Positions 22,521-60,165 of a stretch of 64,000 bases of DNA are shown one piece after another. A model generated the notes under the pieces. The model saw only the letters and a program-made list of their open reading frames with translations, was not told where the DNA came from and ran no database searches. How positions within the stretch are numbered: the first letter of the stretch is position 1; each line of letters starts with the position of its first letter. This DNA is from Kappaphycus alvarezii (Eukaryota > Rhodophyta > Florideophyceae > Gigartinales > Solieriaceae). Made by a program: the position numbers and the translations under genes. The stretch covers positions 1 to 64,000 of the forward strand of contig NADL03000470.1 of the NCBI GenBank assembly GCA_002205965.3, in the 5' to 3' direction.

Positions 22521-23556
22521 ATCAGCACCTCCCTTGCCCCTGTCTCACCTCGAGCCCCTTATCAAAGCGCGTCGGGAGAGGTTCCACCATAGAGAAGAGT
22601 TTTAAGTGGCAAATATCACCCTAGAACTTCTTCAAATACTCAATTAACTCAGTGACAGACCAAAAATGTCTGTTTTCTTTGTACAACTGCCTCGCTAGTA
22701 TTTGACATAAGTTTTCCATCAAGTTAAGATCCGTCAATTTTCCAGGCCACTCCATAACCGCCAAATTTTTTCCAGTGAATGAATCCTTTGCGAGTTTCGA
22801 CTTATGAATAGAAGCTCCATCCTGTTGAAAATCCAGTCCGAGTGGTATTTCTCGGCTGCAAACAGAAAAACATACTTTTGAAGAGATCTCTTGTATTCCT
22901 TCTAATTCTGATGGCCATATAAAACAGCCAACGACGCTATCCCGTACATAGAAAACTTAGCCCGAACCATAACCGACCAACTCCCATGCTGCCAAGTTAT
23001 ATAAGGCTTGCTCCTTCTTTTAACAGCACAAATAACACGTCCAACGATCGGGACCTTCTAAAATTAAATTTTTCTCATCGCTAAACATGACTTGGCGCCA
23101 TTTTTGTTGATTCTGATAGCGGTAAATCGTCGGGGGAAGAGATATTCAGAACTAACTACCCCAAGAAGGAGGTGTTGCAAGCGACAAAAGTGCTACCGTG
23201 GTATAGTTGAACGAACGAAAAGGAGTGTATAGGGAAGACAGTTGAATGGGCTACAAGCAAGTATGGAAAGGGCAGGGTCTACCACCTATGCTTAGTGAAT
23301 AGGGTAAAATAAATGCTTCTTGGGTCTGAAGCTGACTCTCAACTTCCTAACTATTTTGGACTGAGCTTGAAGCTGTCTGCCAACTTGCTTGACCTCTCCA
23401 TGAGGAAGCGGTTTACTCAGCTTGTATAGACTTTTGGCTACCCCTTAAGTCCGAACAAAACTACAGAAGGTACCAGGAAATGCGCAGAAACAATTTGTGC
23501 GGATGACATACTCTAAACAGAAGATACTTAAGAAACTAACAATCAATGAGGTCCTC

Positions 23557-24158
23557 TTATTTTCCATTCTCTAAATCAGATCCGAACAACTCCTCTAAAA
23601 TATCCATGCTGTCCAAGCAGTCCCCACAAATATCTGCGAATGGCTCACAGCTCTCTATTCCCTTCTGGGAGATATCTAAGCTACTAAAGATATCTCCATC
23701 CGGTTCCAGCGTCGGCACCACTTGATCCATACTCTCCAGTCCAAGCCCCACCAGTACAACACTTTCCATGCCCCCATTTCCCTCATCCAACTCGTCCTCG
23801 TCCTCGTCATCCTCCTCTTCCTCCTCTTCATTTTCATCCTCATCCTCATCCTCATCCTCCTCTTCAACCTCATCCTCCCCGTCCTCCTCGTTATTAACCT
23901 CATAGACCAATCCAGGGGCTACCCACTCCTCAACGGTCTCCCCAGCTCCCTCCTCGATGTCCCACTCCTGACCCTCAGGTACCTCCTCGGCCTCGTCCTC
24001 GACGAAGAGCTTGCGGACGAACTCTATTATCTTCTTCTTAGTCTGCCGTCGCAGGTAGTCTTCTGCGTCCTTCGGGCCATATACTGCGAGCGCAAGGCCG
24101 TTTAAGAGGCAAGAGGGGCGGTTTTTGGTGATGGGGCGGAGGGGCGAAGGTTGTTCAT
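23557..24158 (-). CDS. LTR-borne acidic protein gene, copy 1
   Basis: Best-preserved of three copies. ATG at 24,158, conserved in position in copy 2 (MTNVRPS there, MNNLRPS here). A TATTTAAA box lies about 110 bp upstream (24,268-24,275), with counterparts in copies 2 and 3. A 1-nt deletion shortly after the ATG puts the rest in another frame, which stays open to the stop at 23,557. Domains: an N-terminal helical part (LLNGLALAVYGPKDAEDYLR, then KKKIIEFVRKLF), an acidic middle of nearly pure D and E (about residues 110-145), and a C-terminal block with ESMDQVVPTLEP, FADICGDCLD and LEELFGSDL. No known family is recognised. The acidic middle and hydrophobic/acidic tail would suit a transcriptional activator or a chromatin or histone-binding protein, but that is inference. 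Confidence 0.7.
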
Positions 24159-24267
24159 TGTGGTTGTAAATGACTGTAGACGGAGGATAGAGGGTGTTTT
24201 GGGTGTGTGGAGGGAGAGGGGTGATGAGTAAAATGATCAGGGACGTTTGAAACTTGGAATGAAGAGG

Positions 24268-24275
24268 TTTAAATA
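24268..24275 (-). promoter_or_regulatory. TATTTAAA box upstream of the acidic gene
   Basis: TATTTAAA on the minus strand about 110 bp before the ATG. Equivalents are ATTTAAA at 35,602-35,608 and TATTTAAA at 53,797-53,804, each about 80 bp before the start of the homologous gene. Conservation in position suggests a promoter of the gene itself, separate from the LTR's own TATA box. Confidence 0.5.
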
Positions 24276-24999
24276 GGCTCCCGGGGCAGGTTCTATCGAT
24301 TAGGAATAGGTAAAATAAATCTGCAAGGGATTTTGTAGTAGTGCATTTGCGCCCTTTTTCTCAAAAAAACGAGTTTGGAGGAGGAGGTAAGCAAAAAGGG
24401 AAAAAGAACTTGATTCGGGATCGATTCAGAGGGGTAGATACAGTACAGTATAAAAATATCTAGATAAAATGGAAGTAAATTTGGAGAGGACCGCGGTAAT
24501 GATAAGCGAGGTTCAGGGAGGACGAGGAAGGACTGGAACTATAAGCAAATTTGGACAAAGAGAGGTAGTACAGTAAACTATAGGCCTGTAGATGACGGCG
24601 GCAAAAATAATCTGCGCCTAACAGATTCCATGTGATATAAGAGTCCGCAAACACGACCCTTCCCTGTTTGTGCGGTGAGTTCATTGCAGGGACCTTCCTA
24701 ATCAGCTTGAACTTAAATAAACCGCTTCCAAGTAGTAGTCGACGGACCCCTCTACTAGAGCACGACAAATTAAGAGCGGTACGCAGGTCTAACTAAGACC
24801 TACCTTGTTTAGAGGCCTCTCGGGTTAAAAGTTGGTAGAATCTCTCTGTCATTTTTATTCCTCTCAGGGCGCTTTGGGGCTCCGTGTTACTTTTGGAGGC
24901 GAGTTTTATTCCGTACAACTCCTTAGTAGCGCTGTATATGCTCCGGTATTTCCCTGTTAGACATTTTCTGGCTGTGCAGGGCATCAATCGGAGCCTTTT

Positions 25000-25600
25000 G
25001 AAACTCTTTTACTGCCTTCCCCGAGTCATCTTCGATTTTGCTGCAAACATTTCGGATGCCGTTAAAGGGTCGCAGAGAATTATTGGGTATAAGTTATTAT
25101 CATGTATTTTTTTGGTTTGACTGGAAATGATCCTCAAAATTCGTGGCTTTAAAGAATCTTCCGACGCTGGAGTGGCCGAATATGAAAGAAATTAAAAATA
25201 TTTGCTCGATTTCCAAATCCTTTCGACACATCATTTTGAGGTACTAAAATTAATATTTTTGAGTAGTTTTGCTTTTTAATTTAACCTTTTTCAAGTCAGT
25301 GCATTACAAAAGCCAATGGTTTTGTAATCATTTCCGACCCTGTACGTAGGTCTGTTACAGAATATCAGGGAGAAACTTTACTTCGATGGGTTTCTATCCT
25401 GTACAGGAGAAGAACTCTTATGCGTTCAGTATCTACTGGGGGCTGCGCGCGTCCTAACTTTAAGGCTAAGACCTAACCGGATGTACCCGTGGTCCATGCG
25501 CATCGGAGGTCGTGAGAGGATGGCTTGAGCGATGGATGATCAGAGGGTGCAACTCAGTCGCTGGTAGAGACGGAGGCGGGTAAAAACAGGTGCCGAGTGA
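25000..25600. other. No supported gene; small hairpin
   Basis: AT-rich stretch upstream of the mariner transposase. A perfect 9-bp stem (ATTACAAAA/TTTTGTAAT) lies at 25,303-25,328, preceded by CAGTGC. It could be a transposon end, but no partner was found. Confidence 0.4.
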
Positions 25601-26338: not shown

Positions 26339-27057
26339 TGATAGGGGTAAATCGTCGGATGAAGAGATATTCAGAACCAACTACCCCAAGACGGAGGTGT
26401 TGCGAGCGACAAAAGTGCTACCGTGGTATAGTTGAACAAATAAAAAGCAGTGTATATGGGAGAGAGTTGAGAGGGCTACAAGCAAGTATAAAAGGGGCAG
26501 CGTCTACCACTGATGCTCTGCGACCAGCTTAGGAAAAGTTTTCTTGGGTATGAAGTTGACTCTCAACTTCCTACTACTCGGAGCTTGACCTGAAGTTGTC
26601 TGCCAACTTGCTTGACCTCCACTAAAGGAAGCAGTTTACTCGGCTTATATAGACCTTTGGCTACCCTAAAAGTCTTCAAACAAACAGACTAATAACCATA
26701 AAATGCATTCACGGGAATCGTGTGAACCAGAGAGACCATTAGAAGATATTTCATCAAGGTAAATATCTAGGTGCCATACCCATGCCAGCCACCTATCGGC
26801 CAGGGGTGGGAATTGATGTGGCCATTATATAGACCTTTCAGAGTCACTCGTAGAATCACCCACAACCTAGAACTGTACTGACATCCACTATGACAGTGTA
26901 TCCTAAAATAAAAAATCAACCGATGAATTTGCCACACTCACCCAAATTAAAAATATCTTGCAAATTCAAAAACTGTAAAAATATCTACCCAGTTCCAATA
27001 CTGTATACAACTATGGTCCTCATCTAGATTTTTTCGTGTGCGAATTTGCGCACATCA
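26339..27057 (-). repeat. Element 1 3' LTR (LTR-A)
   Basis: 719 bp, TG...CA. It starts on the minus strand TGATGTGCGCAAATTC and ends CCCCTATCA. It holds two near-identical TATA contexts, AAAGGTCTATATAA, about 180 bp apart (TATA at 26,644-26,653 and about 26,825-26,834). The mates differ by about a dozen substitutions and one 1-bp indel. Confidence 0.95.
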
Positions 27058-27069
27058 CGCCCTCCCGCT
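27058..27069 (-). other. Polypurine tract of element 1
   Basis: AGCGGGAGGGCG on the minus strand, immediately before the 3' LTR, where a plus-strand primer for reverse transcription is expected. Confidence 0.6.
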
Positions 27070-27090
27070 CAAGACGAACGTCCCGGCTCG

Positions 27091-27519
27091 TCACTGCCCT
27101 TCTTCTGTTTCCGTTAGTGTTCGCTGTCTTATTGATAAAATATATGGTCTCTCAAACGGGTATGGATGCAACTGATTACCAATATGATGCTCTAAAAAGT
27201 AGGTTTGCATTACTGGTACCTCACTTTGTAGCATAACCTCATATATTGGTTTGATAACATCGAGATGGGGTTGAATACATTCTTCTTCCGTGACTCTTCC
27301 GAATCTTCCAAGAGTGAAAAAGTATATGTGATATGCAAACTCTTCTGGAAGATGCCGGAGGAATGGATGCCGATAAGAAAAGAAGACGCGCATCATCAAG
27401 CACGAATCTTCGTAAGATAAGTGCGGTCCATGTAGCGCCCTAAAACATAAACAGATGCTTATCATGAAATAAGAAATGACCTGCGCATCGTTCGCATCCT
27501 CGGAGATATTGCGCAGCCA
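27091..27519 (-). CDS. Post-integrase domain B of element 1
   Basis: Begins FWLRNISEDANDAQVISYF near 27,519 and runs to the stop at 27,091; the ATG at 27,465 lies inside the domain. It is homologous to domain A upstream: W(I/L)-x-x-I-x-x-D at the start, ICLCFR-x-L-x-GP, then RV-x-FS, PEF-x-x-x-IY, GR(Y/F)G-x-V, PIY and PYP-x-x-xPY at the end. It is also matched by domain B of element 2 (43,670-44,146) and element 3 (60,320-60,725). No transmembrane segment, CAAX or envelope-like feature is visible. The family is unknown to me. It is separated from the domain A frame by a frame change and a low-complexity linker, so whether it is a separate protein or the end of pol is unclear. Confidence 0.6.
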   Translation of the reverse strand, partial: WLRNISEDANDAQVISYFMISICLCFRALHGPHLSYEDSCLMMRVFFSYRHPFLRHLPEEFAYHIYFFTLGRFGRVTEEECIQPHLDVIKPIYEVMLQSEVPVMQTYFLEHHIGNQLHPYPFERPYILSIRQRTLTETEEGQ

Positions 27520-27572
27520 AAAAGATAATCTTCTTCTTCCGACTGTATGCTGTGCATGGTTGTGAAGGAGAG

Positions 27573-29219
27573 CTAGAGATGAAGTTGTGGTGGATGGTCC
27601 CGATGAATGGCCGCGACCAGCTCCTGACGTACTGGGACCTGCACGAGGTCCTCTCGGGGGACTACCGGAACCTCTTCTGGGCGGGTTTTGTCTCCCGAAG
27701 GTCCTCCTCTGATCATCATCACTGCTTCAGGAGGATCCTCGCCGCCTCCAACGTTCCCAATTTGTGGCGGAGAAACGCAAGGTTCCCATAGAGGATACGG
27801 GACCAGTCTGTACTCCATATCCGGGGGTAAGGCGTAACCTCTCAGTTGCACATCTTGGTTGTTCTTGAGAAATACGTAAATTGGACTGATAATATTCAGA
27901 TACGTTTGCGACAAGTCTCCAGCAGCTACCATTCCATATCTTCCTATAGAGTAATGATATATTACCTCCACAAACTCTGGATCTGCTTCCGTGAACCTTC
28001 CGTTTTGGAATGAGAATAGAACTCTTATTAATAGTCGGAAATCTTCTTCAGGTAGCAATGGTCCGTTCAACGTACGAAAACATAGGCATATAATAATGTA
28101 GAAATGGATGATTACGTGTAGTTCATAGTAGTCCCGCGTAATCGAGATGATCCATTCCCAGGCCCTTTTTCCTCCCATAGGAATCATTCTATAGTTAAAG
28201 ATGAGTATGCCCCGTGGTTGCGCATAGTCCTGTGTGAGAAGGAATTCTTCAGGCCTCTGATGGTAAGGGCCTAGACGACGTGCATGGATGGCCCTCCTTG
28301 ATCTCTTCCCTGAGCTTGAACAGAGCTTATAGTGCGGGTGCCTTTCCTCCGTGACGACGCAAGGATTCGAGTCCTTTGTTTGGAAGGCCGGCCACTTCAC
28401 AGCCTGCTGCATTGCTTTCCCATGTACTACAAGTACTTTAGAGCCGACTGAAAAGGTTTGGACTGGAGGCTCTTCATTCTTATTTCTTGTCTGTGTTAGC
28501 ACGTGGTGTGATCTCCAGCCTTCGGTGGCCAGTAGTTCAACTTCCCTACTCTCTTCATCGATAATATTTGTTTCCATGTCTCTCTGTAACATTCTAGGAG
28601 CCCTTCCGTACATTAGCTCGAATGATGACCGTCCACTTCTTCCTCTTCTTCGACGATAGCCGTATAATACTTTTGGTAAGGCATCTTCCCACTGGATTTC
28701 ATTCTCCGACATAGTTTTCGATATTGCTCGTTTAATGGTTCCAACCATCCTCTCCGCTTTACCGTTTGACATAGGAGCGTATGCGAGAACGGTCTTCAGC
28801 TGAATCCCTTTCTCGTCCAAAAAACGAAGCAGTGAAGTTGCAGTAAAACAAAGGGCGTTATCCGAGATTATCCTTTTTGGAAGACCAAACGGTTCAATTA
28901 TTTCTTTTTCGATAAATCTCAGTACCACCTCAGCATTTGCCTCCTCAACTGCAACTGCTATTGGCCATCCAGTAAGATGTTCCACCCCTATAAGGAGATA
29001 TTTGTTTCCGGAAGAGGTTTCCTTGAATGGGCCGGCAAAGTCAATTGAGATGGTTTCAAAGAGACCGGAAACTGGAAAACTTAGAGTTGTCTTATACTTC
29101 CGTATTGGAGTGAATTTTTGACAGTTATCGCAGCTTTTCACGAAATTATAGACGTCCTTATGGATACTGGACCACCAGAAGCTCTCCGTAATGAATTTTT
29201 GGTTGTTTCGAGATCCCAA
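27573..29219 (-). CDS. pol: Integrase plus post-integrase domain A, element 1
   Basis: Frame of 548 codons, out of phase with RT by a 1-nt deletion near 29,196 (element 3 has one more base at CCAAACAATTC). It contains the Cys pair of the HHCC zinc finger (CDNCQKF), whose His pair HDELGH sits at the end of the RT frame. The DDE core is present: SIDFAGPF (first Asp), RIISDNALCF (second Asp) and SNGKAERMV (Glu). After the catalytic core comes a typical C-terminal part (SVGSKVLVVHGKA). Residues about 355-480 form domain A (EWIISITRDYYELHVI ... PYPLWEP), then a P/R/E-rich tail. The integrase inserts the cDNA into the genome. Domain A is not a chromodomain. The core is about normal in length; the tail of about 200 residues is unusual. 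Confidence 0.85.
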   Translation of the reverse strand: MGSRNNQKFITESFWWSSIHKDVYNFVKSCDNCQKFTPIRKYKTTLSFPVSGLFETISIDFAGPFKETSSGNKYLLIGVEHLTGWPIAVAVEEANAEVVLRFIEKEIIEPFGLPKRIISDNALCFTATSLLRFLDEKGIQLKTVLAYAPMSNGKAERMVGTIKRAISKTMSENEIQWEDALPKVLYGYRRRRGRSGRSSFELMYGRAPRMLQRDMETNIIDEESREVELLATEGWRSHHVLTQTRNKNEEPPVQTFSVGSKVLVVHGKAMQQAVKWPAFQTKDSNPCVVTEERHPHYKLCSSSGKRSRRAIHARRLGPYHQRPEEFLLTQDYAQPRGILIFNYRMIPMGGKRAWEWIISITRDYYELHVIIHFYIIICLCFRTLNGPLLPEEDFRLLIRVLFSFQNGRFTEADPEFVEVIYHYSIGRYGMVAAGDLSQTYLNIISPIYVFLKNNQDVQLRGYALPPDMEYRLVPYPLWEPCVSPPQIGNVGGGEDPPEAVMMIRGGPSGDKTRPEEVPVVPREDLVQVPVRQELVAAIHRDHPPQLHL

Positions 29220-30685
29220 TGCCCTAGCTCATCATGGAAAGTCCTTAAGAGCTTCATTCTTCCTTTCAAAGGGGCCACTAGTCGGGGACCGGCGTTAGTG
29301 TGCCGGAAGAGTTTCCCATTCCACAATGTAAAAGCCTTTTGATTCCTGCGTACCCAATTTCTGTGTTCAAGATCAACCTTTCTCATTTCTAGTCCATCGA
29401 GGAATTTGATCAGTCCGTGAATATTAGCTTCGTACTCGTTATCGTTCGGCAGCTGCAACTCGGCAACTCCGACGTTGTCCTCGGAAGCTTTTTCATTTGG
29501 AATCAATGGATCCCTCAAGCGGGATAGGTAATCGGCAGGCTGATTATTGCGTCCGGGCCTATACACAATTTCAAACCGATATTCTGCGAAAATGTCGAGC
29601 CATCGGGCCAAGCGGTGATGTACATCCTTCTTTTGGAATGCTTTCTTAAGTGCCTGGTGATCAGTTATCAAGACAAATTTCTCGAGTGATAAAAGGTAAA
29701 CACGAAACTTTTTCAGCGCGAAGACGACAGCTAGCGCTTCTTTCTCGCAGACTGAGTATCTCTTTTCCGCATCATCCAGAGTTTGACTTGCGAATTGAAC
29801 AGGGTGTAGTCTTCCGTGGTCATCTTTTTGGGACAAAACGGCTCCCAAAGACCGCTCTGAGGCATCTGTTTCCACAACGAATGATCTCTTGAGATCTGGG
29901 TACATGAGAACTGGGGGGACACATAGCTTATCTTTAAGCTCCTCAAATGCAGTTTGCATTTCCTTGTTCCGGTAAAATTTTCCGTTCTTCGTAGTGCTGG
30001 CATGTAACGGTGCTGCAGTTTTAGCGAAATCTTTGATAAATCTTCTGTAATATGAGGCCAGTCCTAAGAAGCTTCGGACCTCCGTCTTTGAAGCGGGCCT
30101 TGGTGCCAACTTGATTTTTTTCGTTTTCTCTGGATCCACTTTAATTCCCTCTTGATCGACGATATGACCGAGTAATTGGATAGAAGTTTTCGCAAAGAAG
30201 CATTTGCTCAACTTAATTTTCAAGCTATACTCCGATATTCTCTCCACAACTGTCTTGACGTGCGAGATGTGCTGATCCAACGTTTCTGGGAATATGAAAA
30301 CATCATCGATATAGACTCTTGCGAATGGAAGTCCTTTCAAAACCTCGTTCATCATTCTTTGGAATGTAGCTGGTGCATTCATGAGACCAAAAGGCATCAC
30401 TTCGAACCTGAATGTACCGGCTTTGCTGGTAGAAGTTGTTTTTTCCTTACATTTTTCATCTAATGGAATCTGCCAATAACCAGTGTAAAGATCAATTGAG
30501 GTGAAGTATCTCCCGTCCTTCAAGTCCTCGAGGATTTCTTCCATGTTTGGAATCGGAAATCGATCGGGTATCATTCTCTGGTTCAGTTGTCGGTAATCGA
30601 CGCAAAAGCGAAGTTTTCCATCTTTCTTTGGTGCTATCACAACTGGAAATGACCATGGGGATGAAACTGGCCGAATAATATCATT
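29138..30685 (-). CDS. pol: Reverse transcriptase and RNase H, element 1
   Basis: Continues the pol frame after the TAA at 30,686. RT blocks in order: FCVDYRQLNQRMIPDRFPIP, SIDLYTGYWQIPL, MPFGLMNAPATFQRMM, VYIDDVFIF (catalytic YIDD), LLGHIVDQEGI and EVRSFLGLASYYRRFI. The RNase H part has VVETDASERSLGAVLSQ (first catalytic Asp), YSVCEKEALAVVFAL and LITDHQALKKAF. The end carries the HDELGH part of the integrase zinc finger before the frameshift. All catalytic residues I can check are intact. It copies element RNA into cDNA in virus-like particles. Confidence 0.93.
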   Translation of the reverse strand, partial: NDIIRPVSSPWSFPVVIAPKKDGKLRFCVDYRQLNQRMIPDRFPIPNMEEILEDLKDGRYFTSIDLYTGYWQIPLDEKCKEKTTSTSKAGTFRFEVMPFGLMNAPATFQRMMNEVLKGLPFARVYIDDVFIFPETLDQHISHVKTVVERISEYSLKIKLSKCFFAKTSIQLLGHIVDQEGIKVDPEKTKKIKLAPRPASKTEVRSFLGLASYYRRFIKDFAKTAAPLHASTTKNGKFYRNKEMQTAFEELKDKLCVPPVLMYPDLKRSFVVETDASERSLGAVLSQKDDHGRLHPVQFASQTLDDAEKRYSVCEKEALAVVFALKKFRVYLLSLEKFVLITDHQALKKAFQKKDVHHRLARWLDIFAEYRFEIVYRPGRNNQPADYLSRLRDPLIPNEKASEDNVGVAELQLPNDNEYEANIHGLIKFLDGLEMRKVDLEHRNWVRRNQKAFTLWNGKLFRHTNAGPRLVAPLKGRMKLLRTFHDELGHWDLETTKNSLRRASGGPVSIRTSIIS

Positions 30686-31171
30686 TTACAGCATACCTGT
30701 AACATTCTCTGAGATAAATTGGTCATATTTTGGCGGTTGACGTCTAGGCCTGTGGTAAATTGGTTGAGTATCGGTAAGTTCAAATGAGTGAGTGACCGGT
30801 ACACTGGCTTGTCTTAGATCGGAAGCGCTCCATGCAATTACTTCGGAAGATGTTAAAATGTCGGATATTTTCATTGAGGCGGGGGCTGTAAGGTTCTGTA
30901 CTTTTTCTTGAATTTCTGCCATTTGGCGCTGGTCTTCTTCTCGAGCCTCTCCCTCCAAATTTTGAAGGACTTCTTCCGGCGTGCTCACATCTTCAGATAT
31001 GGAATCCGATATATTCCTGTTTTCCTTGCAATTGTAATCTTCTTTCGTGCTCCGAATTTCGTCCTTTGATTCGATATTATCGCAAAAAGAAACACATTCA
31101 GGTGTCACACCTACCCTAGAATTCCAGTCTTCATCTGTTTCAAACCCAGAATCATAATCATCCCATGCCAT
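30686..31171 (-). CDS. pol: Acidic connector between protease and RT, element 1
   Basis: In phase with both protease and RT. It starts after the TGA at 31,199 and ends at the TAA at 30,686, which in element 3 is a Glu codon (GAA). The sequence is D/E/S-rich (DDYDSGFETDEDWNS) and ends with RRQPPKYDQFISENV, the usual lead-in to RT. Both stops look like single-base nonsense mutations rather than programmed events, because element 3 has GGA and GAA in these places. Confidence 0.8.
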   Translation of the reverse strand: MAWDDYDSGFETDEDWNSRVGVTPECVSFCDNIESKDEIRSTKEDYNCKENRNISDSISEDVSTPEEVLQNLEGEAREEDQRQMAEIQEKVQNLTAPASMKISDILTSSEVIAWSASDLRQASVPVTHSFELTDTQPIYHRPRRQPPKYDQFISENVTGML

Positions 31172-31198
31172 GTTCAGTATCCCCCGAGCGTACCCTTC

Positions 31199-31645
31199 TC
31201 AACTTCCGAAATTGTTAGTTGGTTCGGAATCTTCGCTGTCATACCTAGAAGTGAAATCTTCACTGTCCGTTTCTTTCAAATCTACCGGATGTGTTGTGCT
31301 TTTGTCGAAATCCAGGGGCATCTTCACGGTTCTGCCGTCAATATTAACTGAATCCATTTGATTGCCCAAGTCAATGCATGTCCCTAGTCTTTCCATGGTA
31401 GGGCAGCCAATGATTGCATCGAAAGGGAGATCAGGCATGACAAGAAAGTCTACATCAACTTTAGAGTCCCCAAAGAACACGGAAACATTGTCAACAGTGC
31501 CCATGCATTTCGAGACGGTTCCATCCGCTACAGTTATTTTTCGAGTCGTTGGAGTAATGTCGAGACCTAGATCTGTCACCAAAGTTTCTGAAATGAGATT
31601 TGTAACAGCACCCGAATCGAAGAGAGCCTGGGTTTTCATACCCAA
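31199..31645 (-). CDS. pol: Aspartic protease, element 1
   Basis: Retropepsin-like domain with intact active site ALFDSGAVTNLISETLV near the start, and the expected second half (LVMPDLPFDAIIGCPTMERL, flap and hydrophobic DAIIG motif). It ends in an acidic tail running into the connector. The ATG at 31,645 is internal to the ancestral polyprotein. The equivalent active sites of elements 2 and 3 are mutated (DSRA and DPEV), so this is the only intact protease of the lineage in the window. It cleaves the polyprotein during particle maturation. Confidence 0.9.
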   Translation of the reverse strand: MGMKTQALFDSGAVTNLISETLVTDLGLDITPTTRKITVADGTVSKCMGTVDNVSVFFGDSKVDVDFLVMPDLPFDAIIGCPTMERLGTCIDLGNQMDSVNIDGRTVKMPLDFDKSTTHPVDLKETDSEDFTSRYDSEDSEPTNNFGS

Positions 31646-32300
31646 TACTTTGACTGGTACCAGCTTAAGACGTCTTGGTGCTGTCGAGGCCGATTGAAGA
31701 ACAGTTTCTTACCCTTAGCGGACTTATTAGACCTGATAATTTTTTTGAGTTCTTTTCTCGCATCCTCTGCGTCGCCCCTCAAAAGTTGACCAAACGTTAT
31801 CCCAGTTGGGGCCGATGCAAGCTCAGCCACCAAATTGTACCTCTTCACATACTCTAGTACGTCCTTAGAGATACTCTTAACTTTCTTACTCTTTTTCGTC
31901 TTCTTGGCCGGAGTGACTCCCAATCCTGGAACAACTTGATCAGACCTCTTGGTTCGAGGAGGTACAGGTGCTGGGATATGCTCCAGCATTCCATAATCTA
32001 GCCTAGGTTTCTTCGATAAAATGTTCCCTTCCCCATCCCTTTTTGTCACATTGACTTGACTAATCTCTTCAGCGATGGATACGTTACCGGCATCCGTCAA
32101 CCTTTGATCCCTTCTATTTTGCAAGATTTTCACCTCTGGTCCTGACTCACTCCTTGCTTCCGATAAATTTTCTCTTCTGTTGTCTTTAGACCAGCAGTTA
32201 CTTTCATGATGCCCATATCGACCGCACTTTCCACAACGAGTGTTTCTATGTGGATTATCAGGACACCTGTTTGCAAAGTGTCCAGGCTTGAGAAAGTAGG
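31636..32300 (-). CDS. gag: Nucleocapsid knuckles and gag-protease linker, element 1
   Basis: In a frame shifted from the capsid frame near 32,330 by an apparent 1-nt deletion. It starts with two CCHC zinc knuckles: CSYFLKPGHFANRC (second Cys replaced by Phe) and CGKCGRYGHHESNC (intact). A basic linker of about 165 codons follows (KKTKKSKKVKSI, then ELASAPTGITFGQLLRGDAE). Knuckles bind genomic RNA during packaging. The frame ends near 31,636, where a second frameshift would lead into protease. Confidence 0.75.
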
Positions 32301-32329
32301 AACAGACTTTTGCGGCCTTGGGGCCCCAG

Positions 32330-33056
32330 ACTGGTTCTTCTTAATGGTAAGAGTAAAGCTTTCCAACTGCGAGGTTATCATGTCAAGTCGATTATCGAAT
32401 CGGGTTTCCAACCTTTCTTCCAAGTTTTTGACATCGCTCCTGACAGATTCTAATGCCGCTGCACTAGTAGCCGGCCTTTGATAATTCTTTTCAGGATGTA
32501 CGATAGACATCGATGTGCGGGTTTCCCTCGGTACCTCACTCAGTGACTGAAACGTCTCCGAATTTTTGACAAATTCTACTATGGTACCCTTCAGTTCATC
32601 AAAAGTGTGAGGGCCCTTGATGAGGAGGAAATCAGAGAGCCGCTTATCCCCCATAGCCGCCTTACGCAGCATTCCGTACTTGGCTTGGGCGTTGAACCCA
32701 GCCTTTTCATAAAGATCACACAAGTACACCAATGAGCTTAACAAATCGTCGAAGTTTAGCCGAGCCTCTATGGCGGTACGAATCATCTCATCTGGTTCTA
32801 CCTCCTTAGCATACTCTTTCACAAGCCACTCACATACGTCACCGAAGTTACGCCCATTCCCGTTAAGAGACCACCCGTCGATAAACTTGGACTTATATTT
32901 GTGCTTTGCGTCACCATGAAGATAGGCAAAGATACTTGCGGCCTTCTCTTCATCGCCCTTCTCACGCATCACAACGTTGACATATGTATAGAGAAACTCC
33001 TCAACGTCTTCATTCTTGCCTCCTGTGAACTTTATACGAGCAGCGTTGAGATCCAT
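32330..33056 (-). CDS. gag: Gag capsid region, element 1
   Basis: ATG at 33,056, about 90 bp inside the 5' LTR. N-terminal MDLNAARIKFTGGKNEDVEE is conserved in element 3 (MDPNAARITFTG). Helical capsid-like segments follow (AASIFAYLHGDAKHKYK, FGDVCEWLVKEYAKEV, LNFDDLLSSLVYLCDLYEKA) as in Ty3/gypsy gag proteins. A coiled coil (LESVRSDVKNLEERLETRFD) precedes the knuckles. The annotated frame continues to 32,130, but after about 32,330 it is the wrong frame. Confidence 0.85.
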
Positions 33057-33129
33057 GATTACGGAAAAGAAATCCCCTCGAATGGTTCCCTAAGACTGCT
33101 CAACTCGAATACCTCGGGTGCAACCCCCT

Positions 33130-33143
33130 CCACAAGAGTACCA
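33130..33143 (-). other. Primer-binding site of element 1
   Basis: TGGTACTCTTGTGG, two bases (TT) after the LTR end CA, in the expected place for a tRNA 3' end complement beginning TGG. The same arrangement is at 38,014 in element 2 and 54,746 in element 3 (TGGTAATTTTGTGGATGG). The tRNA is not identified. Confidence 0.65.
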
Positions 33144-33145
33144 AA

Positions 33146-33863
33146 TGATAGGGGTAAATCGTCGGCAGAAGAGATATTCAGAACCAACTACCCCAAGACG
33201 GAGGTGTTGCGAGCGACAAAAGTGCTACCGTGGTATAGTTGAACAAATAAAAAGCAGTGTATATGGGAGAGAGTTGAGAGGGCTACAAGCAAGTATAAAA
33301 GGGGCAGCGTCTACCACTGATGATCTGCGACCAGCTTAGGAAAAGTTTTCTTGGGTCTGAAGTTGACTCTCAACTTCCTACTACTCGGAGCTTGACCTGA
33401 AGTTGTCTGCCAACTTGCTTGACCTCCACTAAAGGAAGCAGTTTACTCGGCTTATATAGACCTTTGGCTACCCTAAAAGTCTTCAAACAAACAGACTAAT
33501 AACCATAAAATGCATTCACGGAATCGTGTGAACCAGAGAGACCATTAGAAGATATTTCCTCAAGGTAAATATCTAGGTGCCATACCCATGCCGGCCACCT
33601 ATCAGCCAGGGGTGGGAATTGATGTGGCCATTATATAGACCTTTCAGAGTCACTCGTAGAATCACCCACAACCTAGAACTGTACTGACATCCACTATGAC
33701 AGTGTGTCCTAAAATAAAAAATCAACCGATGAATTTGCCACACTCACCCAAATTAAAAATATCTTGCAAATTCAAAAACTGTAAAAATATCTACCCAGTT
33801 CCAATACGATATACAATTATGGTCCTCATCTAGATTTTTTCGTGTGCGAATTTGTGCACATCA
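33146..33863 (-). repeat. Element 1 5' LTR (LTR-A)
   Basis: 718 bp, TG...CA, mate of 26,339-27,057. On the minus strand it has TATA contexts at 33,632-33,641 and 33,451-33,460, both AAAGGTCTATATAA. The last 400 bp are shared with LTR-B and with the partial LTR at 63,851-64,000. Confidence 0.95.
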
Positions 33864-35190: not shown

Positions 35191-36630
35191 TGTCCTCAGC
35201 GATTTTCCGGATAAGCTTGTTGTTATAAAAACAGCCCTTTTTGTACGAAAGCGGCTCTCTCTACAAACTTCTGTCTTCTTCATTCCTGACCTCTGATTTT
35301 TCAAAACAACGCTTCCCACCTATTTTCCTTTAAGAACAAAATCCGGAAACGACTTTTTCCCACGAATCCAAATTCACTGTACAACTCCATTTCCATTTCA
35401 TCTCTGAAGATTTTGGTGCTCCTTTCTCAAAAAAGAAATCTTTCGACACGTGATCGGCTTCGTCCTCCAAATTCAGTTCCGATATTTTACCAAGCTGATT
35501 ACTTGTTATTGTCCTGATTGTATGCAATTTCAAAGCAGAGGTATTGCTTCACATTTTTTTATTTCGTACAAGGCCGTGAAATGTTTCGAGTATTTCGCCA
35601 CATTTAAAGTTCGATATCGATGTCTTTGAGGAAAAACCCCCGCCATCAACCACCCATAGGCTCAACCCCATTTTTGCCCTCACCATGACCAACGTCCGCC
35701 CGTCCTTCACTATCGCCAAGACATCCCCAGGCCGCCGCCTCCTCAACGCTTTGGACTTGATGGCTAATGGACCAGACGATTATGATGACTATTGTAGAAG
35801 AATGGACCAGGAACACGTTCAGGAGTGGTTCTGCCGGCACTGCTTCGAGGAAATGAAGGAAGAGGGGCTGAAGAGGAGGAGTCTGAGGCTGAGATGGTGG
35901 GATTGGAAGGTGAGGAGGACTTGGTCGACCCGTGAGAGCCATTAGTATACGACAGTGGAGGGCTGCTGAGGACGACAGAGGGGAGAGAGAGGGAGAAATG
36001 GGTATTTTTAAATCCTCTGACATGGGTGAAGATGAGGTTGACGGTTATGAGGAAGGACTGCGGGAGCTTGATATGTCCAAGGAGTCTATCTATATTTCTG
36101 AGCCGCTCAATGGGATTTGTAGGGACTGAATTGGGGGTATAGATAATTTGGAGGACTTGTTTGGCTCTGATCTCAGGGACTAAGATTGTGAGGAGGAAGT
36201 ATACATATTTATCTTTATAATATCTGCTCTTACTCTTTCTCGTTCATATGATTCCATTTGATGCATTTTGTGGTACTTAGTAGGTTTTCTGAGAATTAAG
36301 GGTTAGCCAAAAAGTCTATATAAGCTGAGTAGAATGAGTCCTATTGTGGAGGTGAAGCATGGTGGGGGACAACTTCAAGCCAAGTCGCGAGTAGTTAGGA
36401 AGTTGGGATTTAACTTCAGACCCAAGAACCATTTTTCCTACGCTGGTCATAGTGCATCAGTGGAAGACTCTGCCACTTTTATACTCTCCCGTAGCCTCTC
36501 AACTATCGTCCATACCTAACTTTTTCTGTGCGCTCAACTATACTACAGCAGCACTTTTGTCGCTTGCAAAGCCTTCCTTTTGGAGTAATTAGTTCCGAGT
36601 ATCTCTTTTCCCGACGAATTATCCCTATCA
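35191..36630 (+). mobile_element. Long LTR (LTR-B copy 2), about 1,440 bp, inserted in the LINE
   Basis: Homologous over its whole length to copy 3 (53,390-54,743) and in its 3' 450 bp to LTR-A, ending CCCTATCA at 36,630. It starts TGTCCTCAGCG. Flanks ATTGC (35,186-35,190) and AATTG (36,631-36,635) are not a perfect duplication, so the left end may be off by a few bases. LINE RT sequence lies on both sides (GDSDSRLVFSFTIHPI at 36,640-36,690 and NQWYVDEGN below 35,190). No gag or pol follows, so it is a solo LTR. Confidence 0.75.
35685..36183 (+). pseudogene. LTR-borne acidic protein gene, copy 2
   Basis: ATG at 35,685 (MTNVRPSFTIAKTSPGRRLL). The N-terminal domain LLNALDLMANGPDDYDDYCR, then QEWFCRHCFEEMKEEG, aligns with copy 1. 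After a frameshift near 35,870 an acidic E/G-rich middle follows in another frame. The tail is in the frame of 35,932-36,183, with one in-frame TGA at 36,127: SEPLNGICRD, stop, IGGIDNLEDLFGSDLRD, stop. This matches copy 1 (FADICGDCLDSMDILEELFGSDL). The gene was lost through frameshifts and stops, while the LTR promoter part remains. An ATTTAAA box lies about 80 bp upstream. Confidence 0.65.
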
Positions 36631-38011: not shown

Positions 38012-38013
38012 TT

Positions 38014-53389: not shown

Positions 53390-54743
53390 ACCTTGTAGAT
53401 ACCGAAAAATCCTTTTGACTCTGTTTGTACGAGAACGGTCATTTCTGTAGGAGAGTGGTCCTTTCCCCAAACTTCTGTCTTCTCCATCCCCATGAGTTTT
53501 CAAAAACGACTCTTCCCGCCAATTATCTTTTACGAAAAAATCATGTAACGGATTTTTCCAATGAATTCAAATTCACTATGCAACTCCATTTCTATTTTTT
53601 CTTTGAGCATTTTGGTCCTCCTTTTTAAAAAAAAGAAACTTTCGACCCATGTTCCGCTTCGACCTCCAAATTCAGTTCCGATATTTTATCAAGCAGATTT
53701 TTAGTTATTGTCCTACTCGCATGCAAATTCAAAGTTGTGGCATTGTCTCACATTTTATTTCGTCCAAGGACGTGAAACGCTTCGAGTAGGTTGACCTATT
53801 TAAAGTCCGAATTAGACGTCGCTTAGGCAACCCTACTGCCATCGACTACCCCATCGGCTCACCCATTTTTTTGTCTTCAACGTGACCAGCCTCCGCCCGT
53901 CCCTCACCATCGCCAAATCTTCCCGAGGCCGCCGTACCCTCAACGCCGTGGGAACCACTAGGGTACAACGGTGGGGGGGGCTTCCATGGAGAAGGAAGGG
54001 GAGTCTAAGGGAGTAATCGTTATCCTTGACTCTTCTGACGAAGATGAAGAAAAGGGTGAAGATGAGGACGAGGAGAATGATAGGGAGAGAGACATAGAAA
54101 ATGCTGGAATAGTGGGGAGGGGGCCGGAAAGTATGGACCAGATGGTACCGCCTCTGGAACCGAATGGTGGTATCTTCAGTGGTCTAGATATTCTCCAGGA
54201 GGCAATGGAGAATTCTAACTTGTTCGCGGATATTTGTGGGGACTTCTTGCGCAGAATGGATATTTCAAGGGCAATGTTTGCTCTCATCTAGAGGACTACG
54301 ATATTAAGGAATAAATCTAGACTTTATCCTGATAGTATCTGCTATTAGTCTTTCTCGTTCAGACGATTCCATTTCATGCATTTTTTTGGTTTTTGGTATG
54401 TTTCTTTGAGACTTTAGGGCTAGCCAAAAGTCTATATAAGCTGAGTAAATTGCTTCGTCTTGTGGAGGTCAAGCAAGGTGGCAGACAACTTCGAGTCAAG
54501 TCCCGAGTTGTAGGAAGTTGAGAGTCAACTTCAGACCCAAGATCCATTTTTCGTATGCTGGTCACAGAGCATCAGTGGTAGACGCTGCCCCTTTTATACT
54601 TGCTTGTAGCCCTCTCAACTGTCTTTCTTATCCACCCCTCTTTGTTCGTTCAACTACACCACGGTAGCACTTTTTTTCGCTTGCAACACCTCATTCTTGG
54701 GTTGGCTCTGAGTATCTCTTCTCCCGACGATTTACCCCTATCA
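53390..54743 (+). repeat. Element 3 5' LTR of the long type (LTR-B copy 3)
   Basis: Homologous to 35,240-36,630 over its length (for example CCAAATTCAGTTCCGATATT at both), ending CCCCTATCA at 54,743, followed by TT and the PBS. The left end is uncertain (53,300-53,420). The 3' LTR of element 3 is the short type instead. Confidence 0.75.
53882..54291 (+). pseudogene. LTR-borne acidic protein gene, copy 3
   Basis: Start codon is GTG where copies 1 and 2 have ATG (MTSLRPSLTIAKSSRGRR if read from there). About 150 bp of the N-terminal domain is missing. The open part 53,971-54,291 reads VIVILDSSDEDEEKGEDEDE, then PESMDQMVPPLEPNGGIFSG, ENSNLFADICGDFL. The block ESMDQ(V/M)VP(T/P)LEP is shared with copy 1. 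The last 15 residues are frameshifted. A TATTTAAA box is at 53,797-53,804. Confidence 0.65.
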
Positions 54744-54833
54744 TTTGGTAATTTTGTGGATGGGGCTGTACCCGAGGTATTCGAGTTCTAAAGTATTAGG
54801 GAACAATTCGGGGAGGGTTTTTTTCTGTAACAA

Positions 54834-55740
54834 TGGATCCCAACGCTGCTCGTATAACGTTCACAGGGGAACAAGACTGAAGACGTTGAGGAGTTTCTCT
54901 ATACATATGTTAATGTTTTGATATGTGAGAAGAGCGCTCAAGAGAAGGCCGCAAGTATCTTTGCCTATCTTTATAGTGATGCAAAGCACCAATATAAGGC
55001 CACGTTTATCGACCGGTGGTCTCTTAACAGGAATGGGCGTAACTTCGGTGAGGTATGTGAGTGGCTTGTGAGAGAATATGCTAAGGAGGTAGAACCAGAT
55101 GAGATGATTCGTACCGCCATAGAGGCCCGGCTCAACTTCGACTATTTGTTAGGCTCATTAGTATACTTGTGTGTTCTCTATGAAAAAGCTGCGTTCAAAG
55201 CCAAAGCCAAGTACGGAATGCTGCGTACGGCAGCGATGGGAGATAAAAGGCTCTCCGATTTCGTTCTCATCACGGGCCCTCACACTTTAATGAACTGATG
55301 GGTACCATAGTATAATTTGTCAAAAACTCGGAGACATTTCAGTCACTGGGTGAGATACCGAAGAAAACCCATATATCGATGTCTCTCGTGCATCCTGGAA
55401 GGAATTATCAAAGGCTGGTTACTAGTGCAGCGGCACTAGTCTGCCAGGAGCGATGTCAAAAACTTGGAAGAAAGGTTGGAAACCCGATTCGATAATCAAC
55501 TTGATAACCTCGCAGTTGGAGAGCCTTACTCTAACCATTAAGAAGAACATGTCTGGGGCCCCTAAGACCGCAGAAATCTTTTTCTGCTACTACAAGCCTG
55601 TAAAATTTGCAAATAGGTGTCCTGATAATCCCCATAGAAACAATAGCTGTGGAAAGTGCGGTCGGTATGGGCATCATGAGAGTAGCTGCTGGTATAAAGA
55701 AATTTGTCGGACGCGAGAAGCAAATCAGGACCAGAAATGA
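54834..55740 (+). pseudogene. gag: Gag of element 3
   Basis: MDPNAARITFTG, then a 1-nt insertion near 54,870. Frame 54,918-55,298 keeps AASIFAYLYSDAKHQYK, VCEWLVREYAKEVEPDEMIR and DYLLGSLVYLCVLYEK. Frame 55,453-55,740 keeps SQLESLTLTIKKNMSGAP, a damaged first knuckle (CYYKPVKFANRC) and an intact second knuckle (CGKCGRYGHHESSC). Confidence 0.85.
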
Positions 55741-57180
55741 ATAGTTTACAAAACAAGAAGGATAAAAGGTTGGCAGATGCTGGTAACGTATCCATCGCTG
55801 AAGAAATCAGTCGAGTCAATGTGATAAAAAGTGATGGAGAAGGGTACATTTTATCGAAAAAACCTGGGTTAAATTACTGAATGCTTGAACATATCCCAGC
55901 ACCTGTACCTCCTCGGACGAGGAGGTCTGATCAAGTTGTTCCAGGAGTGGATATCACCCCGGCCAGGAAAACGAGAAAGAATAAGAAATTTAAGAGTATC
56001 GCGAAGGACGTACTAGAGTATATGAAGAAGTAAAATTTGGTAGCTGAGCTTGCGTCAGCCCCAACTGGAATAACTTTTGGTCAACTTTTGAGGGGCGACG
56101 CAGAGGATGCGAGAAAACAACTCAAAAAAAATATAAGGTCTAATAAGTCTACTAGGGGTAAAAAAATTGTTTGTTCAATCAGCCTCGACAGCACCAAGAC
56201 GTTTTCAGCTGGTGCCAGTCAAAGTATTGGGAATGAAGATCCAAGCCCTTTTCGATCCGGAAGTTGTTCCAAACCTCATTTCAGAAACTTTGGTGACAGA
56301 TCTAGGTCTCGAAATTATTCCAACTACTCGAAGAATAACTGTTGCGGATGGAACCGTATCAAAATGCATGGGCACTGTTGACAAAGGTTCGGTGTGCTTT
56401 GGGGACTCTAAAGTTGATGCAGACTTTCTTTTCATGTCTGACCTCCTTTTCGATGCAATCATTGGTTGCCCTACCATGGAAAGTCTAGGGACATGCATTG
56501 ATTTGGGCAACCAAAGCGTTTAAGTTCATATAGACGGCAGAACCGTGAAGATGTCCCTGGATTTCGCCAAAAATATACAACCGGAAGATCAAAGAGAAAC
56601 GGACAGTGAAGACTTCACTTCTAGTTATGACAGCGAATATTACGAACAAAGTAAAACTTTAGGAAGTGGAAAAGGGTACGCTCGAGGGACAATGAACATG
56701 GCATGGGATGGTTATGATTCTGGGTTTGAAACAGATGACGACTGGAATTCTAGGGCAAATTTGAGACCCGATTTGTTTCCTTTTGCGATAATATCGAATC
56801 AAAGGACGGCATTCAGGGTACAAAAGAAGATTACCTCTGCAAGAGAATAAGAATATGTCGATTTCTATATATGAAGATATGAGAATGCCGGAAGATGTCC
56901 TTCAAAAAGTGGAGGGTGAGGATCGAGAAGAAGAAGAGCGCCAGACGGCAGAAATTCAAGAAAAAGTACAACACCTTCCCGCCCCCACCTCAACGAAAAT
57001 ATCCGACATGTTAACATCTTACGAAGTAATTGCATGGAGCGATTCAGATCTAAGACAAGCAAGTGTACCGGTCACTCACTCATTCGAACTTACCGACACT
57101 CAACCAATTTACCATAGGAGTAGACGTCAACCGCTGAAATATGACCAATTTATCTCAAAAAGTGTTGCAAGTATGCTCGA
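55741..57180 (+). pseudogene. pol: Linker, protease and acidic connector of element 3
   Basis: The linker has ELASAPTGITFGQLLRGDAE. The protease block reads ALFDPEVVPNLISETL, so S-G-A of the active site is lost. It continues to CPTMESLGTCIDLGNQ, a TAA near 56,521, and an acidic connector with GYDSGFETDDDWNS. GGA near 56,672 and GAA near 57,181 are the codons that became stops in element 1. Confidence 0.8.
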
Positions 57181-58300
57181 AAATGATATTATTCCGCCAG
57201 TCTCACCCTCATGGTCACTTACAGTTGTGGTAGCACCAACGAAGGATAAAGAACTTCTCTTTTGCGTCGATTACCAATAATTGAACCAAACAATGATACC
57301 CGATCGATTTCAGACTCCAAACATTATAGAAAACCTGGAGAATCTGAAGAACGAGAGATACTTCACCTCAATTGACCTTTACACTGGCTATTTTCAGATT
57401 CCTTGAGATTGAAAATGTAAAGAAAAATCAGTTTTAGCAGCAAATCCCGTACTTTCAGATTCGAAGTGATGCGTTTTAGTCTTCTGAATGCATCAGCTGT
57501 ATTTCAAAGAATAATGATCGAGGTTTTGAAAGGACTTCCATTTGCAGGAGTTTATATCGATTATATGGTAATATTCTCAAAAACTTTGGATCAGCACATA
57601 TCGCATGTGAAGACAGTGGTGGATAGGAAATCGGCATACAGCCTGAAATTAAGTTGAGCAAATGCTTCTTTACGATAACTTCTATACAACTACTCGGTCA
57701 TGTCGTCGATCAAGAGGGAACTAAAGTGGATCCAGAAGAAACGAAAAAATCAAGTTGGTACCAAGGCCCGCTTCAAAGACGGAGGTTCGAAGCTCCTTAG
57801 GACTTGCTTAATATCACCAAAGATTTTTCAAATATTTCGCCAAGACAGTAACACCGCTACGTGCCAGTACTACGAAGAACGGAAGATTTTACTATAACAA
57901 AAAATGCAAACTGCATTTGAACAGCTTAAAGAAAAGCTATGTGACCCCCCAGTGCTCATGTATCCAGAATTCAATAGACCATTTGTGGTGGAAACAGATG
58001 CCTCCGAACGGTCTTTGGTTACCTTTTTGTCCCAAAAAGATGAAAACGGAAGACTGCACCCTGTTCAATTCGCAAATCGTACTCTGAAAGATGCGGAAAA
58101 GAGTTACTAAGTCTGCGAGAAAGAAGCACTATCTGTTGTCTTCGTACTTAAATAGTTTCGCGTCTACCTTTTGTCACCCGAAAAATTTGTTTTGATAACT
58201 GATCACCAGGCACTTAAGACGATATTCCCAAAAGAAAGTTGTACATCAGCGCTTGGCTCGATAGCTCGACATTCTTGCCGAATACTGGTTTGAAATTTTG
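57181..58300 (+). pseudogene. pol: RT and RNase H of element 3
   Basis: Blocks LLFCVDYQ, a stop, LNQTMIPDRFQTPN, SIDLYTGYFQIP, then VYIDYMVIFSKTL, where the second Asp of the catalytic YIDD is Tyr. RNase H has FVVETDASERSLVTFLSQ and LITDHQALKTIF. At least six stops or shifts. Confidence 0.85.
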
Positions 58301-59617
58301 TATAGATCCGGACGCGATAATCAGCCTGTTGATCACCTATCTCGTTTGAGGGATCCAATGAATCCAAATGAAAAAGCTTCCGAGGACATATTCGGAGTTG
58401 CCGAGGTGCAAGTGCCCAACGATAAAAAGTACGAAGCTAAAATTCACGGACTAACGAAATTTCTTCATGGACTAGAAATGAAAAAGGTTGATCTTAAACA
58501 CAGAAATTGGGTACGCAGGAATCAAAAGTCTATTACATTGTGGAATCGGAAACTCTTTCGATACACTAAAGCCGGTACTCGACTAGGGGCCCCGTTGAAA
58601 GAAAGAATGAAGATCTTCAGGACTTTTCATGATGACTTAGGGTATGGGGATCTCGAAACAGCCAAACAATTCATTACGGAAAGATTCTGGTGGTCCAGTA
58701 TCCATTAGGACGTCTATAATTTCATTAAAAGATGCGACAACTGTCAAAAATTCACTCCGATCCGAAAGTCAAAGACAGCTTTAAGCTTTCCAGTTTCCGG
58801 TCTATGCGAAATCTTCTGAATCTACTTTGCCACCATATTCAAGGAAACATCTTCCGAAAACAAGTATCTCCTTATAGGGGTGAAACTTCTTACTTAATGG
58901 CCAATAGAAGCTGCAGTTGAGGAGGCCATTGCTGAAGTGGTCCTGAGATTCATTGAAAAAGAAATAATTGAACCGCTTGGTCTACCAAGAAGGATCATCT
59001 CTGATAACGTCCTTTGTTTTAATACAACGACTACAACGTCTACTTCTTTTTTTTGGAAGAGAAATGGATTGGAAGAGAAATGGATTCAGTTGAAGACAGT
59101 TCTCGCATACGCTCCTATTTCAAACGGGAAAGCGGAAAGGATGGTAGTAACCATCAATCGAGCAATATCGAAAAATATGTCGGAGAATGAAATCCAGTGG
59201 GAAGATGGCTTACCAAAAGTGATATACGGCTATCGTAGAAGAAGAGGAAGAAGTGGACGCTCAACATTTGAGCTAATGTATGGAAGGGCTCCGAGAATGC
59301 TTAAGAGAGGCATGAAAAGAAATAATATAGATGAAGAGAGTAGAGAAGTCGAACTACTGGACAGAGAAGGCTGGAGATCACACCGTGCGTTAGCCCAGAC
59401 AAGAAGCGTGGGTACAGAGTCTCCGGGCCAAACATTTTCAGTCGGCTCTAGAGTACTTGTTGTACATGGAAAAGCCATGCAGCAGGCTGTGAAGTGGCCA
59501 GCCTTCCAAACAAAGTACTCAACCCCTTGCATCGTCACGGAGGAAAGACACCCGCATTACAAGCTCTGTTCAACCGCAGGAAGTGATCAAGGAGTGTCAT
59601 CTATGCACATCGACTAG
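58300..59617 (+). pseudogene. pol: Integrase of element 3
   Basis: Frame 58,298-58,708 ends in the zinc finger FHDDLGYGDLETAKQ (second His replaced by Tyr). CDNCQKF follows in a shifted frame. The first Asp block (58,800-58,860) is destroyed. Frame 58,937-59,617 has RRIISDNVLCF (second Asp), SNGKAERMVVTINRAISKNM (Glu) and SVGSRVLVVHGKA. A short direct repeat (AGAGAAATGGATT twice near 59,060-59,090) disrupts the spacing. Confidence 0.85.
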
Positions 59618-59658
59618 TCCCTTACAAGCCTGAAGAATTCCTTCTCACACACGACTAT

Positions 59659-60165
59659 GTGCAACCACGAGGGGTACTCATCTTTAACTACAGATTGATT
59701 CCCATGGAAGGAAAAAGAGCATATGAATGGATCATCTCGATTACGCGAGACTATTACGACCTCCACGTAATCATCTATTTCTACATTAATATATCCCTAT
59801 GTTTTCGTACGGTGAACGGCCAATTGCTACTCGAAGAAAATTTCCAACTATTAGTAAGGGTCCTATTTTCATTTCAAAACGGAATGTTCACGGAAGCAGG
59901 TCCAGAGTTTTTGGAAGTAATATATCATTACTCTATAGGAAGGTATGGGAAAGTAGCTATCGGAGACTTGTCGCAATCCTATCTGAACATTATAAGCCCG
60001 ATTTACGTATTTCTCAAGGACAACCAAGATGTACAACTGAGAGGCTACAGCTTACCGCCTTATACGGAATATCGACCGGTCCATATCCCCTATGGGAACC
60101 TTACGGTTCTCTACCTAGAAACGAGAGCTCAAGTCAAGAACAAGATCCTCCAGAGGCATTCATGA
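59659..60165 (+). CDS. Post-integrase domain A, element 3
   Basis: Open for 168 codons: QPRGVLIFNYRLIPMEGKRA lead, then YEWIISITRDYYDLHVIIYF, SLCFRTVNGQLLLEENFQLL, RVLFSFQNGMFTEAGPEFLE, VIYHYSIGRYGKVAIGDLSQ and SPIYVFLKDNQDVQLRGYSL. It is almost collinear with element 1, and substitutions are mostly conservative. It is the only long intact frame in element 3 besides the integrase core. Confidence 0.75.
   Translation: MQPRGVLIFNYRLIPMEGKRAYEWIISITRDYYDLHVIIYFYINISLCFRTVNGQLLLEENFQLLVRVLFSFQNGMFTEAGPEFLEVIYHYSIGRYGKVAIGDLSQSYLNIISPIYVFLKDNQDVQLRGYSLPPYTEYRPVHIPYGNLTVLYLETRAQVKNKILQRHS

Follow-up and report, generated by a model that had tools for sequence, protein, structure and literature searches.

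Evidence for a former gene encoding an acidic protein within long terminal repeats of a Ty3/gypsy-related element family

The 1510-bp block at 23114-24623 of the window (the whole 64-kb stretch of DNA that was analyzed) is, as judged from its ends and flanks, a solo long terminal repeat (LTR) with the minus strand as sense, and the interpretation that it contains a former protein-coding gene located ahead of the core promoter is well supported by the sequence. This interpretation draws on a target duplication together with a restored transposase frame, on the presence of the gene in three LTRs, on conservation between the B and D copies, and on a 3' part held in common with the Ty3/gypsy element A. 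The complete reading, in which a gene-bearing Ty3/gypsy solo LTR would reflect modular U3 exchange and encode an acidic regulator, is favored with a probability of roughly 0.55.

Structure of block B and the interrupted transposase

Block B has the TG/CA ends proposed in the initial annotation (plus strand TGATAG...CTAACA; sense strand TGTTAG...CTATCA) and is flanked, as was also proposed, by a perfect 5-bp target duplication, GATTC. Joining the flanks, with the block and one GATTC removed, yields a single minus-strand frame in which ...VVFADSYITWN continues into QQKWRQVMFSDE..., and the rejoined transposase frame reads ...VVFADSYITWNQQKWRQVMFSDE... across the empty site. In Pfam, the upstream flank is matched by HTH_Tnp_Tc3_2 (E 1.4e-4; 22.5 bits, curated cut-off 31.5) and its downstream counterpart by DDE_3 (E 2.2e-6; 28.0 bits, curated cut-off 28.6); both scores are below their cut-offs, and the two halves stand in the correct order around the block. 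The suggestion that excision restores a mariner transposase frame was thus borne out by both the joined frame and the domain matches. The interrupted transposase has further stops, so it was decaying irrespective of the insertion of block B. The features of this locus are as follows.

22624..23113, minus strand: Tc3/mariner-like transposase, downstream half (DDE_3), decayed by stops
23109..23113, no strand: target site duplication GATTC, left copy, read from the sequence
23114..24623, minus strand (sense): solo LTR B, from its ends, target duplication, lack of an internal long terminal repeat and a 3' part 82% identical to the LTRs of element A
24624..24628, no strand: target site duplication GATTC, right copy, read from the sequence
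24625..25008, minus strand: Tc3/mariner-like transposase, upstream half, with HTH_Tnp_Tc3_2 at 24625-24792

A BLASTN comparison of the block with itself showed no long terminal repeat inside it, and a small LTR-flanked element within the block was rejected on this result. Since TG/CA ends, the GATTC duplication and the restored transposase frame occur together with the lack of an internal long terminal repeat, block B is assigned as a solo LTR; the earlier view of 23114-24623 as one LTR holds, given the target duplication, the rejoined frame and the 3' part common with the LTRs of element A. Elsewhere in the window, a DNA transposase ORF of the Tnp2 type (Transposase_21, E 8.7e-7) lies at 11593-12588.

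Reading frames and boxes of the LTR gene

The gene had been placed at 23557-24158 as one unit with a D/E run and its own upstream box. A gene is present there, the D/E run can be seen, and the box TATTTAAA lies at 24275-24268, but the coding sequence is not one frame: the frame that starts with the ATG at 24158 runs for 18 codons, and the other 187 codons are read in a second frame that has no ATG until after the D/E run. The longest open frame in block B comprises 267 codons, against a maximum of 251 in 1,000 first-order Markov sequences.

23557..24120, minus strand: main open frame of the B gene, 187 codons plus stop inside an open frame of 267 codons; comprises a short N-terminal segment, the D/E run and a C-terminal segment
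24102..24158, minus strand: ATG-started 18-codon frame in B (MNNLRPS...), in a frame different from that of the main open frame (frameshift)
24268..24275, minus strand: TATTTAAA box upstream of the B gene, with ATTTAAA 116 bp before the ATG
23114..23483, minus strand: shared 3' LTR module of B, present in LTRs with and without the gene; its TATACAAGC core box is positioned near 23428

The initial annotation had also referred to three gene copies, and two more were indeed found within the window, in the 5' LTR of element C (C5) and in LTR D. The gene occupies the same LTR position at all three loci. ATTTAAA, which occurs nine times on the plus strand of the whole 64 kb, lies 116 bp (B), 84 bp (C5) and 83 bp (D) before the start position, the C5 and D boxes not being independent because the DNA is similar there between these two LTRs. 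Downstream of the gene, a TATA[T/C]AAGC box is found in B, C5 and D (3/3); the B gene therefore sits upstream of the core TATA-like box of its LTR, and from this downstream box we infer that the gene is located in U3.

35218..36630, plus strand: LTR D, which carries the gene; approximate start; no target duplication was seen, and the TTTGGTA start of A and C does not come after it
35685..35879, plus strand: D gene, N-terminal part, MTNVRPSFTIAKTSPGRRLLNAL...
35998..36183, plus strand: D gene, C-terminal part, in a different frame with one internal stop; ...LEDLFGSDLRD
53394..54743, plus strand: gene-bearing 5' LTR (C5) of element C; start approximate
53882..54279, plus strand: C5 gene copy; GTG at the start position, middle part missing, tail diverged

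Because the TTTGGTA start does not follow it, LTR D is considered solo or truncated. None of the three gene copies in the 64-kb window is intact (0/3), the reading frame being broken in each, and those of C5 and D are more decayed than that of B. The LEELFGSDL tail, annotated as conserved, holds for B (LEELFGSDL) and D (LEDLFGSDL) but is not shared by the third copy, C5.

Protein-level conservation of the gene copies

At the N-terminus, the B and D proteins are 43% identical over 42 amino acids (E 6e-5 in a search of the window with composition correction switched off), and BLASTN gave no DNA match between B and D over this part of the gene. The first ~700 bp of the U3 of B had no DNA match to C5 or D at E up to 1e-2. 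Coding constraint was assessed by comparing pN/pS with neutral simulations matched for how many and which kinds of changes occurred (5,000 runs for the gene frame and 2,000 for each other frame). For segments picked from the best protein alignments, a choice that biases toward low values, the 29 codons of the B-D N-terminus gave a pN/pS of 0.41, the neutral mean being 0.98 and none of the 5,000 simulations being as low. The C-terminal comparisons were borderline, both for B-D (38 codons; pN/pS 0.55, p 0.062; BLOSUM p 0.007) and for B-C5 (59 codons; pN/pS 0.46, p 0.055; BLOSUM p 0.031), and the Jukes-Cantor-corrected dN/dS of the C-terminus was 0.38 and 0.34, respectively. The two other frames of the B-C5 stretch gave p 0.46 and 0.49 (BLOSUM p 0.16 and 0.08), and C5-D (32 codons) displayed no selection signal (pN/pS 1.2, p 0.79).

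These values bear directly on the idea that the frame arose by chance from a GAG/GAT repeat and that the likeness among copies merely follows LTR DNA similarity. The D/E stretch does contain 52 bp repeated at 77% and produces false frames in the antisense direction; in C5 (116 codons, p 0.25) and D (159 codons, p 0.026), the longest open frame runs antisense to the gene and does not correspond to it. However, the D/E run does not include the conserved segments at the N- and C-terminus, and the N-terminal protein likeness of B and D comes without a DNA match; with the B-D N-terminus at 0/5,000, a chance frame is largely refuted and is scarcely credible. The LTR gene was probably once real and conserved and has since decayed, as suggested by the three copies in the window.

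Modular structure of the LTR family

BLASTN recovered seven LTRs of this family in the window: three gene-bearing (B, C5 and D), three gene-less (A5, A3 and C3), and one incomplete LTR at 63858-64000, for which the window ends before the U3. The elements to which the paired LTRs belong are listed here.

26339..33863, minus strand: element A, Ty3/gypsy and full-length; a 719-bp and a 718-bp LTR with 98.2% identity, neither containing the gene; GAGGC flanks the element at either end
54744..61525, plus strand: element C, internal region and 3' LTR; 85% identical to A over a 5.8-kb alignment, 3' LTR at 60795-61525 of the A type and gene-less

Element A comprises an ORF in the gag position (no Pfam match), RVT_1 and RT_RNaseH, then Integrase_H2C2 and rve, and it is classified as Ty3/gypsy (Metaviridae) by this order of reverse transcriptase, RNase H and integrase domains; block B, for its part, has no internal region. 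Its pol frame contains two stops ahead of the reverse transcriptase ORF, and element A may therefore have moved with help from other copies. A further related element, F (37578-44619), is the third of this kind and is decayed (LTRs of 434 and 485 bp, 77.6% alike); the TTTGGTACT start after its 5' LTR is the same as in the related elements. Additionally, a Ty3/gypsy-like element is located at 45692-51879, with LTRs of about 424 bp at 96.2% and a C-terminus that may resemble a chromodomain.

Block B aligned with both LTRs of element A at 82%, over the last 346 bp of the sense strand only (BLASTN), and the first 300 bp of A-type LTRs (A5 and C3) gave no BLASTN match better than E 0.11 to the U3s of B, C5 and D. 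Because the LTRs of A match B in the 3' part only and the U3s are unmatched, the LTR family is, on these alignments, modular: a single conserved 3' module with a box of the TATATAAGC type is combined with alternative U3s that do or do not contain the gene.

Element C (53394-61525) is itself mixed, with the gene-bearing C5 at its 5' end, directly preceding an internal start that resembles the one in A (TTTGGTA...), and the gene-less, A-type C3 at its 3' end. Within the shared module, C5 and C3 are mutually closest (90.6%; identity to A is 86-87%), a grouping weakly supported in the tree (0.665), and in BLAST alignments with gaps counted C5 is 84.2% identical to C3 and 84.7% to A, so that the C5-C3 pairing is not firm. 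The U3s of C5 and C3 differ despite this closeness in the shared module. Reverse transcription makes both U3s of an element alike; since those of element C differ, one of its LTRs was probably changed by recombination after insertion. No clear target duplication was seen for element C or LTR D, the 5' ends of which are approximate.

The placement of C5 also speaks to a different reading of the 1.5-kb unit, as a compact non-autonomous element that has only an end in common with LTRs. B and D do stand alone, and no full element with the unit, or a gene-bearing LTR, at both ends occurs within the 64-kb window, element C having one at its 5' end only. However, C5 occupies the normal place of an LTR directly before the A-like internal start, the block has no long terminal repeat of its own, its end is LTR-like (CTATCA) and ~350 bp of the LTR 3' part are shared, which together make the non-autonomous reading highly improbable.

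The main rival to a functional LTR gene is a passenger, in which a gene from the host or from another element was captured by one lineage into its U3, then spread with it as cargo that had no role, and is now decaying. Element A, the element with the most alike LTR pair (98.2%), has gene-less LTRs at both ends, and the family as a whole therefore does not need a gene in the LTR. This pattern, the 0/3 intact copies and the C5-D comparison without a selection signal would all be expected of a passenger, whereas the pN/pS of 0.41 in the B-D N-terminus would not, unless selection on a host gene preceded separate captures. On balance a passenger is considered unlikely, if the most serious of the alternatives to a gene that served its element.

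Additional genes between integrase and the 3' LTR

Elements A, C and F each contain two related tandem genes, or their remains, between the integrase and the 3' LTR, recognizable by the motif ICLCFRALHGP...RVFFSY...IYFFTLGRFG. These may possibly constitute a new accessory gene pair; AlphaFold2 predictions for them reached a mean pLDDT of 39, too low to guide a comparison of folds.

28178-27771 and 27540-27094, minus strand: tandem genes of element A, 35% identical to each other, no Pfam match for either
59704-60123 and about 60360-60716, plus strand: tandem genes of element C, the second being remains with stops
about 43091-43411 and 43700-44059, plus strand: tandem genes of element F, both being remains with stops

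Their location raises the alternative that the LTR gene first stood between pol and the 3' LTR and was drawn into U3 by a shift of the plus-strand primer site. The occurrence of extra genes at that location in A, C and F agrees with such a route, as does HIV-1 nef, which lies partly within U3 according to the cited part of one source (PMC12789967). However, hhalign gave a probability of only 0.1% for the LTR gene against the tandem genes (from small alignments) and blastp gave E 2.3 or worse, values on which kinship of the two was rejected, and the gene of element C is in the 5' LTR and was not found before the 3' LTR. A primer-site shift is thus regarded as improbable.

Predicted product and homologue searches

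The B protein (187 residues) contains 67 D/E and 11 K/R residues, with a pI of 4.05. AlphaFold2 predicted it with a mean pLDDT of 46.5, the three N-terminal helices reaching 64-67 and confidence being low nearly everywhere else, so that this model is likewise too weak for fold comparison. Nothing in Pfam scored above the cut-off for this protein, and PDB searching by sequence gave three matches with E 0.067 or worse and no convincing homologue. A homologue search with the whole protein found nothing significant among the best 7,988 candidates by shared words, probably D/E words, and the C-terminal region searched alone gave six candidates, none of them significant. In viral and prokaryote contigs, collections that may omit the source genome, the LTR gene had no confirmed match; the reverse transcriptase of element A had no confirmed match in the viral contigs either.

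Of 7,970 candidates scored in the protein collection, the best-scoring relative of the element A reverse transcriptase was 53% identical and covered 96% of the query; identity among the matches listed peaked at 60%, with 60% query coverage. Lacking a near-identical match to this reverse transcriptase, the collection seems to be without the copies of the source genome; the missing homologues therefore do not show that the LTR protein is unique. Across the window, Rfam gave no match at gathering scores and ARAGORN found no tRNA; a 132-bp tandem direct repeat (86%) was observed at 62512-62772.

Retroviral-type transactivators (Tas/Bel1) are nuclear proteins that bind and activate the LTR promoter. 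By analogy, the product of the LTR gene, with its small N-terminal segment (helical in a low-confidence prediction), D/E tract and hydrophobic-acidic tail, might have been a nuclear acidic regulator of its own LTR promoter, comparable to a retroviral accessory transactivator. This role is our best guess, drawn from composition and low-confidence helices, and we hold it to be doubtful. The tail might conceivably be an activation domain, and VIVILDSSDEDEE of copy C5 might conceivably be a SUMO-binding motif.

Proposed history of the gene-bearing LTRs

Combined, these results are most consistent with a Ty3/gypsy element that had a long LTR, with a sense-strand gene in U3 before the core promoter, and that would have left block B as a solo LTR. 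The gene would have had its own TATA-like box and, on the inferred transcription, would have ended just before the shared 3' module, such that each LTR, solo LTRs included, could have acted as a self-contained transcription unit encoding the protein. Gene-bearing and gene-less U3 modules may have been swapped between related elements by recombination, a pattern suggested by element C, which has one of each. More broadly, we tentatively propose, as a possibility of rather low probability, that this Ty3/gypsy lineage put a regulatory gene in an exchangeable U3, that solo LTRs seed the genome with stand-alone copies of the regulator, and that LTR recombination lets gene-less relatives such as A acquire or shed the module. 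If this were true, solo LTRs, which are usually viewed as promoters only, could stay protein-coding.

Comparison with known systems

Genes located in LTRs are known from a few retroviruses. The closest precedent, by analogy of gene position in the LTR, is sag of MMTV. According to the cited part of the source, the whole sag ORF lies in U3, and there are several U3 promoters, with extra ones upstream of the classical promoter (PMC12789967). MMTV differs in being a retrovirus whose Sag is a type II membrane protein, whereas the present case concerns a Ty3/gypsy-like element and a very acidic protein. A literature search, with most subscription journals outside its coverage, yielded among the matches listed no precedent for a protein gene within a Ty3/gypsy LTR. 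If the present interpretation is true, LTR retrotransposons beyond retroviruses would have reached an MMTV-like gene-in-LTR solution.

The modular arrangement is paralleled by crapaud of Podospora, for which the cited sections describe a conserved 3' LTR half with a variable U3 before the TATA box, as well as full copies whose LTRs belong to different subfamilies, as in element C, a mixture ascribed to gene conversion, with template switching discussed by the authors as a further route of exchange (PMC10787394). In contrast to the U3 module of ~1 kb with a gene found here, the divergent U3 of crapaud is <200 bp and no gene is described in it in those sections (PMC10787394). Exchange of LTR segments has also been proposed for RLG_Quinta, in the part of the work cited (PMC11302176). 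The present interpretation, if true, would mean that U3 modules can transfer genes, and not promoters alone, between elements.

Extra conserved genes beyond gag-pol are likewise carried as aORFs by plant elements such as Grande, RIRE2 and Retand, and DNA binding has been suggested for TRP28 of plant LTR retrotransposons, according to the cited portions of two sources (PMC7264820, PMC11963269). Unlike the LTR gene, the plant aORFs are internal to the element, most of them standing between pol and the 3' LTR, with none described inside an LTR in these portions (PMC7264820, PMC11963269). Lastly, in Cassandra a gene-like unit within the LTR, related to 5S rRNA, supplies the promoter, as described in the cited part of the source; this unit is an RNA-gene sequence in a non-autonomous element, whereas LTR B appears to have had a protein gene (PMC10853983).
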